Under the pieces are notes generated by a model. The model searched no databases and was not told the origin of the DNA. It saw only the letters and a program-made list of their open reading frames with translations. From Burkholderiaceae bacterium (GTDB lineage: Bacteria > Pseudomonadota > Gammaproteobacteria > Burkholderiales > Burkholderiaceae_F), in assembly GCA_019236735.1 (NCBI GenBank), contig JAFAIM010000012.1, positions 1 to 64,000 of the forward strand: a stretch of DNA of 64,000 nucleotides. Reading direction: 5' to 3'. The translations under genes were made by a program, and so were the position numbers. Positions 6,426 through 47,096 of the stretch are shown in pieces (within the stretch, counting starts at the first letter, position 1; each line of letters begins with the position of its first letter).

Positions 6426-7805
6426 TCACCCCACGAATTGGGGGGGAACTGTCGGTAGGACCCGCCGAATCGTCAGGATCGCTCGCAGCCCGCCACCCTC
6501 GCGCGACTCGAACGCGACATCTCCTCCGTGACCGCGTGCGATCGCGCGCGCAATCGCCAGCCCGAGCCCGGTTCCGCCAGTGTGGCGCGCGCGAGATGCC
6601 TCCAGCCGCACGTACGGTTCGAACACGCGTTCTTGCTCGGATTGCGGGATTCCCGGACCGCGGTCCTCGACGACGAATTCGATCCGCTCGGCACCGTCGC
6701 GGAGGGTCAGATCAATGTCGCCTCCGCCGTATCGACGCGCGTTGTCGACCAGGTTGCTCAGGCAGCGCCGCACCGCTTGCGCGCGCGCGAGTAACGGCGC
6801 GCCCGCCTGTCCATGCGTGCGGATCTGGCAGCCGAGCGCCCGCATGTCCTCCGCAACCGATTCGACCAGCGCGTTCGCGTCGACCCGGGCCGGTTGCTCG
6901 CCACTGTGTCCGGCACGCAGGAATTCGAGCGTGTTGCCGATCATGCGATCCATCTCGACCAGGTCGCTTTCGATCGCCTCGCGTGTCGCCTCGTCGGCGA
7001 GACGCTCGATTCGCAGGCGCACGCGCGTGATCGGCAGCCTGAGGTCGTGTGAGACCGCGGCGAGCGCTTGCGATCGGGTCTGCAAGTTGCGCTTCAAATC
7101 CTGCTGCATCCGGTTGAACGAGGCGGCGGCGACCGCGACTTCCGCCGGACCGGTTTCTGCCAGTGGAGGCTGGTCGAGGTCACTGGCCAGGCCCTGCGCC
7201 GCGCGCGCCAGCGTCTGCAGCGGCAGCGTCAGGCGCCGCACCGCCCACGCGGCAAGTGCGCCGGCGGCGGCCATCAGCGCTGCAACCGCGATCAACAGAT
7301 TGGTCGATGGCCCCGACAGCGGCGGCGGCAGCGCGTGCCGCAACGTCACGACCGTCCCATCTCTCAGTCGCGCCTGAACCGCGAGCAGCCGCAACTGTCT
7401 CCGGTGCGTGCCCTCGAAAGGTTCCGGCGCAGCGGCAGGCTCCGGGCGCAGTACCACTGCCTGCACCTCGAGTGGGTGCACCAGTTCCTTTCGAAGGTTG
7501 TCCAAGAATGCGGACGCCTCGTCCGGCAGCGGTTCCTGCGGCTTGCGCCACGCCTCCTGCAAGCTCGCGTGCCCCGGATGCAGTCCAGCCGTGCCAATGA
7601 TGCGCAGCCGTTCGTCCGGCGTCGCGGCGTCGATCGCGCCGATGAATCCCGCGATCCGCTGGGCCGCCTGATCACCCCATATCCGGCGCACCAAGCGCTC
7701 GCGCTCGACCAGCAGCACTCCGGCCACGACCAGTTGCGAGACGACCACCGCCACGACGGTGGCGAAGACCACCTGGCCGAACAGCGATCGGGGAAGAAGC
7801 TTCAT
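6426..7805 (-). CDS. Two-component sensor histidine kinase
   Basis: HAMP region, H-box AAVSHDLRLPITRVRLRIE, N-box NLVDNARRYGGGDIDL, G-box EDRGPGIPQSEQERVFEPYVR...GTGLGLAIARAIARGHGG. Confidence 0.95.
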   Translation of the reverse strand: MKLLPRSLFGQVVFATVVAVVVSQLVVAGVLLVERERLVRRIWGDQAAQRIAGFIGAIDAATPDERLRIIGTAGLHPGHASLQEAWRKPQEPLPDEASAFLDNLRKELVHPLEVQAVVLRPEPAAAPEPFEGTHRRQLRLLAVQARLRDGTVVTLRHALPPPLSGPSTNLLIAVAALMAAAGALAAWAVRRLTLPLQTLARAAQGLASDLDQPPLAETGPAEVAVAAASFNRMQQDLKRNLQTRSQALAAVSHDLRLPITRVRLRIERLADEATREAIESDLVEMDRMIGNTLEFLRAGHSGEQPARVDANALVESVAEDMRALGCQIRTHGQAGAPLLARAQAVRRCLSNLVDNARRYGGGDIDLTLRDGAERIEFVVEDRGPGIPQSEQERVFEPYVRLEASRARHTGGTGLGLAIARAIARGHGGDVAFESREGGGLRAILTIRRVLPTVPPQFVG

Positions 7806-31554: not shown

Positions 31555-32508
31555 CTACTTGCGCGCGCGACCGCGTATCGCCGGCTGCGCTGCTTCCGCC
31601 GGCTCGACGGCGGGCGCGCGCCTTGGCGGTTTGCGCGCCTGCTGTTGCGCCGCCGGCTGTTCTTGGGGCGTCTCCTCGTTCGCTGCCTGCACCTCGAGCG
31701 GCCGCGCCGGCGGCTGGCGCGACGGGCCGGCGCCCTTGCGCTCCAGGCTCGCTCTTAGCGCCTCCATCAGGTCGATCACCTGCGCCCCACCCGGTTCGGC
31801 GCCGTCGGCCAGCGTGATCTCCTGACCCTCGACTTTCTTTTGTATCGCCGCCTCGATACGTGCCCGCACCTCGTCCTTGTAGACGGTGGGATCGAACGCC
31901 TCGGACGACTGCTGATCGATCAGCTGGTGCGCCAGCTTCAGTTCGCCCTCCTTGACCTCTGTACCGGGGATCTCGAGCTCCCGGATCGATCGCACCTCGT
32001 TCGCGTACAGCAGTTGCTGCATCACCAGACCGTCCTCGACTGCCCGCACCATCACGATGTACTGCTTGCCGCGAGCGGCCCACCGGCCGAGTGCGCAGCG
32101 TTTCGATTCGCGCAGCGCACGTGTGAACAGCGCATACGGCTTGGCGCCGCCCTTATCGGGCGCGAGGTAGTACGCCTTGTCGAAATACACAGGGTCGACC
32201 GAATCGAGCGGAACGAACTCGGAGATTTCGGCGCTGTGCGTGCCGACCTCTTCCATCGCCTTGAGCTCTTCCGGAGTAAAGATTACGTACTGGTCCTTGG
32301 CGAACTCATAACCTTTGACGATGTCGTCGCGCTCGACCGGCACGCCTTCTTTCACGCACACGTACTGCTGCTTGAGCCGCGAGCCATCCGCTTTGTGCAG
32401 CATGTTGAAGGAAATGGCGCGGCCTGATTCGGTGGCCGAGTACAGCTTGACGGGAATCGCAACCAACCCGAACGACAGCGTCAGCGAACCAATCGAACGC
32501 GCAGCCAT
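31555..32508 (-). CDS. ku: Bacterial Ku protein (NHEJ)
   Basis: ARSIGSLTLSFGLVAIPVKLYSATESGRAISFNMLHKADGSRLKQQYVCVKEGVPVERDDIVKGYEF; basic C-terminal tail. Confidence 0.96.
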   Translation of the reverse strand: MAARSIGSLTLSFGLVAIPVKLYSATESGRAISFNMLHKADGSRLKQQYVCVKEGVPVERDDIVKGYEFAKDQYVIFTPEELKAMEEVGTHSAEISEFVPLDSVDPVYFDKAYYLAPDKGGAKPYALFTRALRESKRCALGRWAARGKQYIVMVRAVEDGLVMQQLLYANEVRSIRELEIPGTEVKEGELKLAHQLIDQQSSEAFDPTVYKDEVRARIEAAIQKKVEGQEITLADGAEPGGAQVIDLMEALRASLERKGAGPSRQPPARPLEVQAANEETPQEQPAAQQQARKPPRRAPAVEPAEAAQPAIRGRARK

Positions 32509-32547
32509 CCGCCACCTCCTAGCAATGAACCTCAGCCGGTACGCACA

Positions 32548-35256
32548 TCATTGTTTCGCTGTCGAACCGCTCAACACGCTTTCCAGGCTCTGCTTGCGCG
32601 CCAGGACGCCGTGCCACGCATCGCCTCTCTCCGCAAGCCGCCGCGCCGCATTGTCGAGGCGGAAATCGAGCGGATGCGCGCCAGCCAGTTCGTCCCAAGT
32701 CAACGGCATCGAGACCGGGGCCCCCGGCACGCCCCTCGGCGAATACGCCGAGTTCAGCGTCTTGCCGCGCACGTTCATATTGTAGTCGATGAAAATGCGG
32801 CCGGTGCGTTTGGGTACGCTCCATTCCATCGTGATGTCACGCGGGTGCTGCCGCATCAAGTGGCGCCCAACCAGCTCGCAAACCGCACGCGCCTGCTCGA
32901 AATCGATCGACCGGCGGATCGGAACGAACACGTGCAGCCCGGTTTTGCCCGAAGTCTTGACGATCGGCTCCAGCCGCATACTGTTGAGCAGCTCGCGCAG
33001 GCGGAACGCGACCTCCTTGCCCTTCTCGAACGCGGTCGTGTTGAGTTCCGGCTCATCGCCCGGTGCCTCCCGGCCGGAGTAGATATAGGGGTCGAGATCG
33101 AACACGAGGTAGTCAGGGTAGTTCAGCACAGAGGCTTCGAGCGACTGCTCCGAGCTGGCGTAGTCCGTTTCGTTTGAGACGGCGTCCTCGCCGACCTGCG
33201 CGCGTGAATGCCACACGTGCAGTTCCAGCGCACCGGATTGCGCCAGCCAGAGCAGCGTGGGCAGGTTGTTGCACAGGAGCACCTCTTGATTCTCATCCTT
33301 GTGGCTGGAGAACACGGTGAGGGTCTCGACGAACGGCGGCCGCTGTTGTTCCCAGTGTTTCTGGAAGAAGCGCTGCCCCTGGATGCCGTCGGGCATTCGG
33401 ATCAGGGTAAGCGGCCGATCGGCCAGGTGCGCTAGCAGGAATGGCGATACCTGTGCGAAGTAGCGCAACAGCTGGCGCTTGGTGAGCGCAGGCTGGCGCA
33501 GCGCCACATTTTCCGGCCAGTAGACGCGGTCCAGGTGTGTCAGGCGGATACGATGTTCTCCGAGCACAAGCACGAACGCATTCTTCGCGGTCTCCAGCTG
33601 CGCGAGCACTTCATCGACCTGGTCGCGTGCGGCATGCGGCGCCGGAGCCGGGGGCTGCGCTTCGCTCGGCCATTGCACCGACGTCGGTGCGATGTCGTCG
33701 CGCAAACGCAGGAATACCGGGTGGCGCAGACGATCGTCCTCGGTCCAACTGTGGAACCGAACCTCCGCGACCAGTTCCGGCTCGACCCATCGGGTCGGGT
33801 TCGGAAGCTCCGGCACCGGGGAAAATGGGCTGGTGGCCCGCTCGAGACCCCGCAGGCGTTCCATCAGCTGCGCGAGCGTGCGATCGTCGAAACCCGATCC
33901 CACGTGCGAGGCGAAACGCAGCTGGCCGGCGTCCCACGCGCCGACGAGCAGCGCGCCGAGCGGGGCACGAATGCCGCGCCCCTCCGTGAAACCGCCGACC
34001 ACGAACTCGCCGGTGCGCGACGGCTTGGCCTTGAGCCAAGCAGGCGAGCGCCGCCCGGACTCGTAGCGGCTGTCCAGGCGCTTGCCCACAACGCCCTCGA
34101 AACCGCTCTCGATCGCTGCCTGTTGCAGCGCCAGGCCGTCCTGCTCGGTATGCACGAGTTGCACCCGCGGCGAAGGCAGCAGACACTCTGATAGGTAGCG
34201 TCGCCGGTCGCGGTAGGTCGCTTGTCGCAACTCGATTCCTGCGAAGTAGAGCAGGTCGAAGCAGAAGAAAACGACGGCGGCGCCGGAATCGGCTACGGCG
34301 ATCTCGCGTTCCGTCTTCAGCTGAACACGGTTTTGCAGCGCCTGGAACGACGGCCGTCCGTTCGCATCCAGCGCCACCAGCTCGCCGTCCAGGATCATTC
34401 CGTCGACCTGCTGCTTGCCCAACTCGGCCGCCAGCGCTGGGAACGCCTTCGTCAAGTCCAACCCGCGCCGCGACCGCAGTCGAACGCCGTTCGCGTCGAC
34501 GAAAGCCAGCACCCGGTAGCCGTCCAGTTTCGGCTCCCACATCCAGTCCGCGCGGCTAAAGGGTGCATCGACCGTTTCGGCCAGCATCGGCGCGACATCT
34601 TCGAGCATCGGTACGGTTTTGCCGGCCGGCACCAGCTGGGCAGCAGGCATCGGGTGCGCCGGAACGTACTTCAGCTCCTCGACCGCAGCGCCCGACAGGA
34701 CGGAGCGGTTGCGCCGCGTGATATCGACAGCCAGGGCGAAACGGTCTCTGTGCTTGATCAGCAGCCAGCTCTTGGGGTCCTGCGCGGTGCGCACCAACGC
34801 GAAGGAACCCTTGAGTTTTTCCCCGCGCAACAGGAAGCCGAGCTTGCCTTTCGCCAGGCCTTCGCGCGCGCGCAGCTCGGCCTGAGCGCGTTCATGGAAC
34901 CAGGTACCGTCCTCGTCCGGCGAATACACCCCGCAATCCCACACGATGACTTCGCCCGCGCCGTATTGGCCGGGCGGGATCACCCCTTCGAAAGACGCGT
35001 AGTCGTACGGGTGATCCTCCGTTTGCACCGCCAAACGCTTCTCCGCGGTGTCGAGCGAAGGGCCTTTCGGAACCGCCCAGGACTTGAGCACGCCGTCGCA
35101 CTCCAGCCGCAGGTCATAGTGCAGCCGCCGCGCCGAATGTTGCTGCACGACGAACAACAGCGGGCCGGTCGAAGGAGCGGCTTGCTCCGGCGCCGGCTCC
35201 GGAGTCTGGTCGAAGCGGCGCTTGGTCGAGTATTCGCTAAGCTTGTCCTTGTCCAC
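32548..35256 (-). CDS. ligD: Multidomain DNA ligase D (phosphoesterase-ligase-polymerase order)
   Basis: PE domain FVVQQHSARRLHYDLRLE; ligase WEPKLDGYRVLAF; polymerase LTHLDRVYWPEN...YLVFDLDP. Confidence 0.96.
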   Translation of the reverse strand: MDKDKLSEYSTKRRFDQTPEPAPEQAAPSTGPLLFVVQQHSARRLHYDLRLECDGVLKSWAVPKGPSLDTAEKRLAVQTEDHPYDYASFEGVIPPGQYGAGEVIVWDCGVYSPDEDGTWFHERAQAELRAREGLAKGKLGFLLRGEKLKGSFALVRTAQDPKSWLLIKHRDRFALAVDITRRNRSVLSGAAVEELKYVPAHPMPAAQLVPAGKTVPMLEDVAPMLAETVDAPFSRADWMWEPKLDGYRVLAFVDANGVRLRSRRGLDLTKAFPALAAELGKQQVDGMILDGELVALDANGRPSFQALQNRVQLKTEREIAVADSGAAVVFFCFDLLYFAGIELRQATYRDRRRYLSECLLPSPRVQLVHTEQDGLALQQAAIESGFEGVVGKRLDSRYESGRRSPAWLKAKPSRTGEFVVGGFTEGRGIRAPLGALLVGAWDAGQLRFASHVGSGFDDRTLAQLMERLRGLERATSPFSPVPELPNPTRWVEPELVAEVRFHSWTEDDRLRHPVFLRLRDDIAPTSVQWPSEAQPPAPAPHAARDQVDEVLAQLETAKNAFVLVLGEHRIRLTHLDRVYWPENVALRQPALTKRQLLRYFAQVSPFLLAHLADRPLTLIRMPDGIQGQRFFQKHWEQQRPPFVETLTVFSSHKDENQEVLLCNNLPTLLWLAQSGALELHVWHSRAQVGEDAVSNETDYASSEQSLEASVLNYPDYLVFDLDPYIYSGREAPGDEPELNTTAFEKGKEVAFRLRELLNSMRLEPIVKTSGKTGLHVFVPIRRSIDFEQARAVCELVGRHLMRQHPRDITMEWSVPKRTGRIFIDYNMNVRGKTLNSAYSPRGVPGAPVSMPLTWDELAGAHPLDFRLDNAARRLAERGDAWHGVLARKQSLESVLSGSTAKQ

Positions 35257-44280: not shown

Positions 44281-44384
44281 TCGCCACTGATCCTGTCACC
44301 GCTCGCCGATCGCCGGCGGCCCGGCGATGCCGGGCCGCTCTTCTGCAAGAAAAACGCGCGGGACTTACTACCCGCCGCTTTGGA

Positions 44385-44960
44385 TCAATTGACCTTCTGA
44401 CCGACCACCGTCACGCGTTGTGGGCGCTCCGCGTTCCACTTCTGCCATCCGGCTAGTTTGTCGGAGAGGGACTTATTTGTTTCTTTAAGCTGTTGATTTT
44501 CTCGTCCAAGGTCTTGAGCGATGCCGGTAACTTCTCCGATGCTGTCGAAGACTCCGTCGAGGGCTTGGGAGATTCCAGTAATTCTTGAGGTACAGGCTTC
44601 TCCGGAGGCTCTGGCGGCGGACAGGTCGGTTTCGAGAACATGGCGCACCCCGGCAGCACGGTGAGTAGCAGCAGCCAGACTCTTATCCTTTGCCTCAATA
44701 GCCTTTTCATGATCTTCGCGCTCCTTCGCCATTGTTTCGATCAACGCCTGCTTTTCTTGCTCAGCCCTGTCCGCCGCCCGCTTCAGGTCTTGCTTCGTCT
44801 GCTGTTCCTGAGCGAGTTTGGCGTTGGCGGCTGTTCGCGCGGCGAGCTGCGACTCCAATAGCAAGCCCGCGAGGAACGCCACTACAGCGACCCCCAGGTA
44901 CGCGAAGATCGTCACCGCCTGGTTCTTCGGTGGTTCACGCATCGACCCTTCGGTACTCAT
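44385..44960 (-). CDS. Rz-like inner-membrane spanin (i-spanin) candidate
   Basis: Single N-terminal TM (VTIFAYLGVAVVAFLAGLLLESQL) then an uninterrupted charged helical/coiled-coil periplasmic domain; fully contains an out-of-frame lipoprotein ORF. Confidence 0.7.
   Translation of the reverse strand: MSTEGSMREPPKNQAVTIFAYLGVAVVAFLAGLLLESQLAARTAANAKLAQEQQTKQDLKRAADRAEQEKQALIETMAKEREDHEKAIEAKDKSLAAATHRAAGVRHVLETDLSAARASGEACTSRITGISQALDGVFDSIGEVTGIAQDLGRENQQLKETNKSLSDKLAGWQKWNAERPQRVTVVGQKVN
44453..44710 (-). CDS. Rz1-like outer-membrane spanin (o-spanin) lipoprotein candidate, nested in the Rz-like gene
   Basis: MKRLLRQRIRVWLLLLTVLPGCAMFSKPTCPPPEPPEKPVPQELLESPKPSTESST...: lipobox LPGC, Pro-rich mature region, alternate frame entirely inside 44385-44960 on the same strand. 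Confidence 0.7.
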   Translation of the reverse strand: MKRLLRQRIRVWLLLLTVLPGCAMFSKPTCPPPEPPEKPVPQELLESPKPSTESSTASEKLPASLKTLDEKINSLKKQISPSPTN

Positions 44961-45093
44961 CCGTGTTTCCTCCCATCAATGAGGGTTCGGTTGGCACATT
45001 TGTACAGGACTTCGTCGGGTGCGTGATGCCGGGACGGGGCCAGCCGTTCGGATGTAGCGGCGCGAGCACACCCGCACCACAGCAGGCCCGCGC

Positions 45094-45810
45094 CTACTGC
45101 ACCTGGGCCGAACCGAAGTAGTAGTTGAACTCGCTGCGCAGCGCCGCCAGCTTCGGATCGGCGGCCGCATCTTTCAGGAACAGATCGACGGTCGACCGCG
45201 CCCATTTGATGCCGTCTTCGCCGAGACCATAGGTCTTGTCTTGCGTCCAGATGTTGCGGACTCGCGTGAGCGACGTGCTGTACGTATGGGACGTCACCGG
45301 CACGCCGTTGACCAATACTTCGTAGACGATGGAATGGTTGCCGCTGGATACCTGCGGAATCAGACCCAGCGTCACTCCGGCCAAGAAACCGGTTGCGGTG
45401 GCCGCGCCGCGGTCGATCCGGTATGTGTGGTACACGCGCAACTCGATCGGGCTGCCGATTGCTTCGCGGCTGAGCTTGTCGAACTGCGGTGCGTGGTGGA
45501 TCGAGTCGAATAGGTCGTTGGTGACCGAGTCGGAGTTGTAGCGCAGCGCAGGCAGAGCCACATCTTGCGCAGCCGTGGCTGGCGGCGCTGCGGCTGCCGG
45601 CTGTGCGGCGCCTGCAGGCGGCACCGGAGCCGATGCGGGCTGTTCGGCGGCCGCAGGCGGCACCGGAGCCGATGCCGGTTGTTCGGCCGCCGCGGGTGGC
45701 GTCGCCGGGCTGCCGCTTTCGCCGCTGCCACCTTTCGTATCGTCGGCAAAGCAGGCGGTCGACCACAGAAGCGCGCCGGTCAGCAGCAAGAGCCTGCTCG
45801 ACCTACTCAT
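45094..45810 (-). CDS. Secreted Pro/Ala-repeat protein of unknown function
   Basis: MSRSSRLLLLTGALLWSTACFADD... with PPAAAEQPASAPV duplicated; start overlaps the stop of the upstream protease. Confidence 0.75.
   Translation of the reverse strand: MSRSSRLLLLTGALLWSTACFADDTKGGSGESGSPATPPAAAEQPASAPVPPAAAEQPASAPVPPAGAAQPAAAAPPATAAQDVALPALRYNSDSVTNDLFDSIHHAPQFDKLSREAIGSPIELRVYHTYRIDRGAATATGFLAGVTLGLIPQVSSGNHSIVYEVLVNGVPVTSHTYSTSLTRVRNIWTQDKTYGLGEDGIKWARSTVDLFLKDAAADPKLAALRSEFNYYFGSAQVQ
45613..45690. repeat. Near-perfect 39-bp tandem duplication
   Basis: gcaggcggcaccggagccgatgc..gttcggc.gcc repeated twice, encoding PPAAAEQPASAPV twice. Confidence 0.8.
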
Positions 45811-46981
45811 AGCAGCGGACGCTGACAACAGCTCCGAGGGCCGCTTGGTTGGCCGTGTGGATGTCGCCATGCGGGTTCTCCTCGACGCTATTAAATTGCA
45901 GGTTGTTCTTCTGCAAGAACTTGACCGCGTAGCGGGAGTCGAGCGCAAAGTTGACGTTCTGCGGAATCACGCCCTGCTTCGCGAGCGCGGCCGCGCTCAA
46001 CGTTCCCACAGTGATCCCGAGCACTTCTCCGCCGTCGGACACGACCGGTCCGCCGCTGGAGCCCGGCTGCACCGGCGCCGAAAACTGGATCTGCCCCTCG
46101 GATCCGGTCAGTCCACCACGAGCGCTGATGTTTCCGCGGGTCAGATTCGGGGACTGCGAGAGGATGTCCTGCAACGGAAAGCCGACGTTGGTCACTGACT
46201 CGCCGAGCTCGAAGTTCAGGTTGCGCCGGAACGACAGGAAAGCCGGCGAGGTCGCGCCGGTATCGAGTGCCGCGACGTCGATCACGCTGCTGGTGGCAAT
46301 GACCTTCGCCGGCACCACCTTCTCATCGCGCTTGACCTCGATCTTGGCGCACTCCTGTATCACGTGCGCCGCCGTCAGCACCTGGCCGTTGCCGTTGAAG
46401 TAGAAACCGGTTCCGCTGGCCCAGGGCTTGTCCTTTTTCACCGCGAATTCGAGCGAGCGCGACTTCAGGTCCAGCGTCGCCGGGTACTTGGTCGAATCCG
46501 GACGCAGACCCCCGACCACCGCCGACATCACCTGCTGCGCAGCCTGATACGTCGCCACGTCGAGCGGACCGCCCCTTGAGAAGTCGCGAAGATCGACCGT
46601 GACGGTCTCGGTACCCTTCAGCAGCGGATCGTCGGAAGCCGCGAAGACCGCGTAGTCGAGCGTGTAGGCGACCCGTCCGGATTCGGCTTTCACCTGCGGA
46701 TGCAACGCAAGCAGCAGGCCGAACGAATCGTCGGCGCCGGCCTCGGCCATGCGGCTCTTCGAAAAATAGACCTGTCCAGCCGACAGCACGGTGTCTTCGA
46801 GCGTGCGCCCAGATTCGAACACGCCGCCGAACCCATGAAACCGCCGGACCTGTGCCGGCATGTAGATCGCCACGGAAACGTCGGCCGGCAGCTTGACATC
46901 CTTGGACTCGGCGCACGCGGCGTCGACAGCCGCTATTGCCGCCAGCAGCCCCGCCAGCCCTCGTGGCCACAGGCCGCGCAT
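45803..46981 (-). CDS. Secreted trypsin-like serine protease
   Basis: Triad regions VLTAAHVIQ, IDVAALD, VQPGSSGGPVV; MRGLWPRGLAGLLAAIAAVDAACA signal. Track ORF extends to 47026. Confidence 0.9.
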   Translation of the reverse strand: MRGLWPRGLAGLLAAIAAVDAACAESKDVKLPADVSVAIYMPAQVRRFHGFGGVFESGRTLEDTVLSAGQVYFSKSRMAEAGADDSFGLLLALHPQVKAESGRVAYTLDYAVFAASDDPLLKGTETVTVDLRDFSRGGPLDVATYQAAQQVMSAVVGGLRPDSTKYPATLDLKSRSLEFAVKKDKPWASGTGFYFNGNGQVLTAAHVIQECAKIEVKRDEKVVPAKVIATSSVIDVAALDTGATSPAFLSFRRNLNFELGESVTNVGFPLQDILSQSPNLTRGNISARGGLTGSEGQIQFSAPVQPGSSGGPVVSDGGEVLGITVGTLSAAALAKQGVIPQNVNFALDSRYAVKFLQKNNLQFNSVEENPHGDIHTANQAALGAVVSVRCYE

Positions 46982-47096
46982 GCTTATCCGCCCCCCTCTG
47001 CGCGCCGACGTAACATGGGTTCGCATCCGCTCGGCGCCGTTGCCGCCCTTTGCAACTATAGCCGCTGCGCTCGACGCCAGAGGTCCAAGTTAGCGC

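Follow-up and report, generated by a model that had tools for sequence, protein, structure and literature searches.

Two nested genes on the chromosome of a Burkholderiaceae bacterium probably form a genuine embedded two-component spanin-type pair of a previously undescribed sequence family, standing alone, with no lysis genes beside it. The window, that is, the whole 64,000-base stretch of DNA analysed here, covers bases 1–64000 of the 149,760-base contig C32 from a 3.3-Mb assembly (genome G000), where the pair is present in a single copy. The original prediction, an isolated nested pair with the architecture of Rz/Rz1 lysis genes, agrees with the ORFs, the hydropathy profile, the structural model and the lipobox described below. 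Known spanins either carry out the final step of phage lysis or belong to complete domesticated lysis clusters. A lone pair kept in both reading frames in several genomes poses the question whether spanins may serve the host without a holin and an endolysin or are carried as lone cargo. The features of the locus are as follows.

44385..44960, minus strand: outer gene, i-spanin-like, 191 aa (ORF, homologues with 71% and 63% identity, hydropathy, structural model)
44453..44710, minus strand: inner gene, o-spanin-like lipoprotein, 85 aa, in the +1 frame (ORF, homologues with 71–72% identity, dual-frame constraint)
44969..44973, minus strand: Shine-Dalgarno sequence GGAGG of the outer gene, 8 nt 5' of its ATG (sequence and alignment)
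44721..44726, minus strand: Shine-Dalgarno sequence AAGGAG of the inner gene, 10 nt 5' of its ATG (sequence and alignment)
44358..44375, minus strand: terminator-like hairpin, five G-C pairs followed by a T run, about 10 nt past the outer stop codon (consensus match only)

Homologues were sought at several taxonomic levels. The scan of 85,462 species genomes yielded one true relative, locus L005 in the Betaproteobacteria bacterium MAG BP_15, whose outer protein is 71% identical over its full length to that of the window. This genome (G357 in the family set) belongs to the same genus as the genome of the window. A two-row profile run against 67 family genomes detected the pair in three of them, including G357 and G320, the latter from a different genus. 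Compared to the window, the outer and inner proteins are both 71% identical in G357 and, respectively, 63% and 72% identical in G320. Absence of the inner ORF from homologues of the outer gene would have counted against the original prediction; it is kept in both of them, starts at the equivalent position, spans 85 codons and encodes the lipobox LPGC. Among 400 genomes of the order and 399 of the phylum, only the genome of the window itself was matched; these searches use a fast first pass, which remote relatives can escape. Three other candidates were rejected. The match in Acidobacteriaceae (L006) is antisense to a conserved radical-SAM-like gene, as read from the ORF; those in the family genomes G337 and G340 are short and limited to the C-terminal coiled coil, the former lying within a 294-aa ORF that by inspection resembles MreC.

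The inner ORF is contained entirely within the outer one in the +1 frame. It starts at 0.44 and ends at 0.88 of the length (L) of the outer gene, corresponding approximately to outer codons 84–169. The outer protein has a single hydrophobic segment at approximately residues 16–35 (the best 19-mer starts from residue 16, KD 2.45). In its AlphaFold2 model, constructed from a three-row alignment and of moderate confidence (mean pLDDT 73), residues 14–178 form a single helix, and the product is predicted to be a single-pass membrane protein with a long helix. Inspection of the inner protein reveals a signal sequence and the lipobox LPG/C followed by alanine at position +2 in all three copies; the lipobox deviates from the consensus [LVI][ASTVI][GAS]C. 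Lipoproteins with alanine rather than aspartate at +2 are expected to reach the outer membrane, and the inner product is predicted to be an outer-membrane lipoprotein. Proline accounts for 17–20% of the mature inner protein among the copies (20% in that of the window). The only cysteine of the outer protein, C123, and the second cysteine of the inner one, C30, are invariant in all three copies.

Expression signals were considered at the same locus. The Shine-Dalgarno sequence of the inner gene is identical in the three copies, and a purine-rich run occupies the position equivalent to that of the outer gene in both homologues. The score of the terminator-like hairpin falls within the shuffle expectation. 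No match to a σ70 promoter was found at the pair, and none to riboswitch or sRNA families above the threshold.

Spurious ORFs abound in the GC-rich window, so nesting by itself is weak support for a gene, and the homologues are decisive. In the codon alignment of the outer gene, the fraction of differing third positions is 37–51% before the overlap, 17–20% inside it and 38–43% after it. In 20-codon windows, third-position divergence falls from 0.32–0.58 to 0.13–0.20 at approximately codon 85 and recovers around codons 155–174, so the drop coincides with the extent of the inner ORF. Fourfold-degenerate sites of the outer frame differ at 3/37, 4/33 and 4/38 positions inside the overlap in the three pairwise comparisons, and at 16/35, 17/28 and 16/32 outside it, in the same order (Fisher's p = 4e-4, 1e-4 and 4e-4; the three comparisons are not independent). 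We also simulated the overlap under an unchanged outer protein, allowing synonymous changes at the rate observed outside the overlap, with 5,000 runs per homologue. The simulated identity of the inner protein was at most 56 and 53 of 85 residues vs 60 and 61 observed, and the observed value was reached in 0 of 5,000 runs for each homologue (0 of 10,000 in total).

These data bear on the explanation that the outer gene alone is real, the inner ORF arising incidentally from GC-rich coding. Long spurious ORFs are common in the window, the codon-usage score of the inner frame is negative, and the inner frame stays open in 32% and 23% of the simulations constrained by the outer protein only, so that openness alone is no evidence for a gene. 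However, a by-product would leave neither a third-position constraint limited to the overlap, nor an inner identity beyond all simulated values, nor the conserved Shine-Dalgarno sequence, lipobox and length of the inner ORF. We give this explanation practically no credence; judging from the alignment, it is already contradicted by the dual-frame constraint. Because the third-position constraint is confined to the overlap and the inner identity exceeds that in the simulations, the comparison indicates that purifying selection acts on both frames and that both genes are real. The original prediction noted that both frames are open; in the three genomes they are also intact and under purifying selection. 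Few examples of selection on two frames of a bacterial chromosome are as clean as this one, and it concerns a gene that most annotation pipelines would overlook.

The GC content of the pair is 57% vs the background of 64–67%, and the deficit is located in the overlap (53%). Outside the overlap, GC3 equals 0.73–0.75, close to the mean of 0.78 for genes of the window contig. Hence, foreign origin was rejected as a reading of the low GC content, which, given that the deficit lies in the overlap, can be ascribed at least in part to dual coding.

The pair has the sequence features of embedded spanins: the architecture of the outer protein, the lipoprotein, the relative position, selection in both frames and cysteine. 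Comparison with Rz/Rz1 families, the check proposed with the original prediction, gave no significant match: the Pfam, PHROG and NCBIfam profiles produced none to a spanin or any other family. Weak matches to Rz-like spanins (E from 0.05 to 1) were obtained for 5 of 16 PHROG families; one of seven shuffled controls yielded two such matches, and these matches were dropped as evidence since a shuffled sequence produces them too. A tblastn search of the window's proteins against 50,697 phage records gave no match, and no relatives were found in viral contigs and plasmid collections. Foldseek against viral structures found nothing, a single long helix being a poor query, and sequence searches of PDB gave nothing useful. 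Spanins fall into many unrelated sequence families. The lack of a profile match is therefore expected of a new family and is a weak argument against spanin function.

The three copies reside in three different, non-phage neighbourhoods. In the window, one flank of the pair holds a gene for a threonine-aldolase-like enzyme, and the other flank holds genes for a secreted protein and a trypsin-like protease. The latter two occupy positions 45094–47026 on the minus strand, the protease (with an HtrA-like domain) preceding the secreted protein, which has no known family and whose true start is probably nearer 45810. Elsewhere in the window (31555–35256, minus strand), PHROG matches mark genes for a Ku-like protein and an ATP-dependent DNA ligase, apparently adjacent and probably forming a bacterial end-joining cluster. 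In G357, the pair follows phoH and lies ahead of a Sir2 gene, a gene for an OMP-like protein and an MFS transporter gene. In G000 and G217, phoH and dnaB are adjacent, whereas in G357 they are separated by about 4.2 kb including the pair; by this comparison, a segment of about 4.2 kb is inserted between phoH and dnaB in G357. An internal segment of phoH recurs as a perfect 58-bp direct repeat (L005, 7055–7112 and 8672–8729) immediately downstream of the G357 pair, at a distance of about 1.6 kb from the original copy in phoH; the repeat may be a mark of the insertion event or an assembly artefact. In G320, the pair comes after an enoyl-CoA hydratase gene, and the contig ends about 140 bases past the pair, where a prophage to the right is possible.

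The isolation of the pair from phage genes, claimed in the original prediction, was upheld in the window: among the PHROG matches (E ≤ 1e-5) of 42 predicted genes, 25 from 20.7–47.0 kb and 17 from 47–64 kb and 9.5–19 kb, there were no families of phage structural proteins, holins, endolysins or integrases. The same held for the 18 genes scanned in G357, with no such family among the best 25 of the 27 families matched. The adjacent prophage that might have explained the location was thus found in neither scan. Three further families, Phage_portal, Terminase_6N and Phage_sheath_1, had no match in G000 or G357, both more than 90% complete. Genome G320 contains phage portal and terminase genes at positions 7148–9678 of contig C412 (L038, L039), and by these genes it holds a prophage on a contig other than that with the spanin pair. 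On contig C79 of G000 (L040, 41–2396), a GH24 "phage lysozyme" gene has genes for a DUF900 hydrolase and a putative membrane protein ahead of it and an LprI-type lysozyme-inhibitor-like gene after it; no other phage gene was recognized there. A split lysis module involving this lysozyme was rejected as a partner shared by the copies, given that G357 and G320 have no GH24 match.

Phage origin of the pair is most likely, as genes arranged in this way have otherwise been described in phage lysis cassettes. Less settled is what maintains it on the chromosome. The original prediction offered a domesticated lysis module or a relic. The relic is disfavoured by purifying selection in both frames and by the intact state of the pair in three genomes, and domestication is possible, but the neighbourhoods differ and at least one copy was inserted at its locus, so repeated capture from an unsampled mobile element has to be weighed as well. 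The pair might be cargo from unsampled phages or satellites of this bacterial family, inserted separately and selected in the phages, an explanation that may well be true although we would not call it probable. It would account for the three unrelated neighbourhoods, the placement of the G357 copy in an insertion between phoH and dnaB, the repeated phoH segment beside it, suggestive of a recent rearrangement, and the sparse occurrence in 3 of 67 family genomes and in no others among the sampled genomes of the order and phylum. On the other hand, no phage relative was found in the phage and viral collections searched, no other phage gene was recognized beside any copy, and GC3 outside the overlap is near the gene mean of the contig. 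Fourfold-site divergence outside the overlap (0.46, 0.61 and 0.50) is also near that of phoH in the same genome pairs (0.43, 0.53 and 0.50; the counts are small), as long residence predicts. Common descent, accompanied by relocation and numerous losses, would produce such values, while the variety of sites and the rarity of the pair speak for movement; descent and movement can both hold. Capture as cargo concerns the history and upkeep of the pair and is compatible with the spanin mechanism.

Two explanations place selection in the bacterium. We tentatively suggest that the pair could be a host-resident spanin, selected over inter-genus time and acting in trans with host peptidoglycan hydrolases without a holin or endolysin of its own, in programmed rupture of the outer membrane or in the release of vesicles or proteins. 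It seems unlikely that the pair is instead a resident non-lytic envelope system, in which an inner-membrane coiled coil and an outer-membrane lipoprotein would serve tethering, vesicle release or export. Both frames are indeed maintained without a linked holin or endolysin, and work on type 10 secretion reports protein release as a function of lysis cassettes that contain spanins. However, the embedded layout, position and cysteines are of the phage-spanin type, the pair is rare in the family, and no secretion partner is common to the three neighbourhoods.

If the pair is of the spanin type, as we consider probable, the outer protein would reside in the inner membrane and the lipoprotein in the outer membrane, each partner possibly dimerizing via its conserved cysteine (C123 and C30, respectively). 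The C-terminal regions of both partners would pair across the periplasm. After removal of peptidoglycan, the complex would collapse, the two membranes fuse and the outer membrane open. Since a linked holin and endolysin are absent, the pair would depend on an unlinked host enzyme, or on an infecting phage, to clear the peptidoglycan.

Among the papers on spanins and type 10 secretion found in an open-access library, no title or listed abstract describes a spanin pair standing alone on a chromosome; subscription papers are mostly outside this set, and we make no claim of priority. Type 10 secretion systems, which are domesticated lysis cassettes (e.g., that of Yersinia entomophaga), resemble the present case in having spanins on a bacterial chromosome. 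These systems keep the holin, endolysin and spanins together, whereas the window pair stands alone, with no neighbour common to the genomes and no cluster of holin, peptidoglycan hydrolase and spanins at the window locus. The lysis cassettes of prophages have the same pair layout, but structural, integrase and other lysis genes were not recognized in the examined flanks in G000 and G357. Unlike lambda Rz/Rz1, the window pair has no holin, endolysin or phage around it; unlike known spanins, it has no detectable similarity to the profiled families; and unlike known embedded spanins, its inner protein has the lipobox LPGC. The mature inner protein is also longer than lambda Rz1 (64 vs 40 aa), the latter containing 25% proline (PMC5295617). 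In other respects the pair closely follows the embedded type. As in lambda Rz/Rz1 and embedded spanins, the o-spanin gene lies wholly within the i-spanin gene in the +1 frame (PMC6139136 and PMC5295617), and an N-terminal membrane helix with a long helix is combined with a short proline-rich lipoprotein. In a published survey, the inner gene of about 70% of embedded spanins spans from 0.4–0.5 L to 0.9–1 L, in agreement with the position of the inner gene here (PMC6139136); this position and the cysteines are also consistent with the genetics of lambda (PMC5295617). In the same survey, 507 of 528 two-component pairs have cysteine in one partner or both (PMC6139136), and in the window pair both partners contain it.
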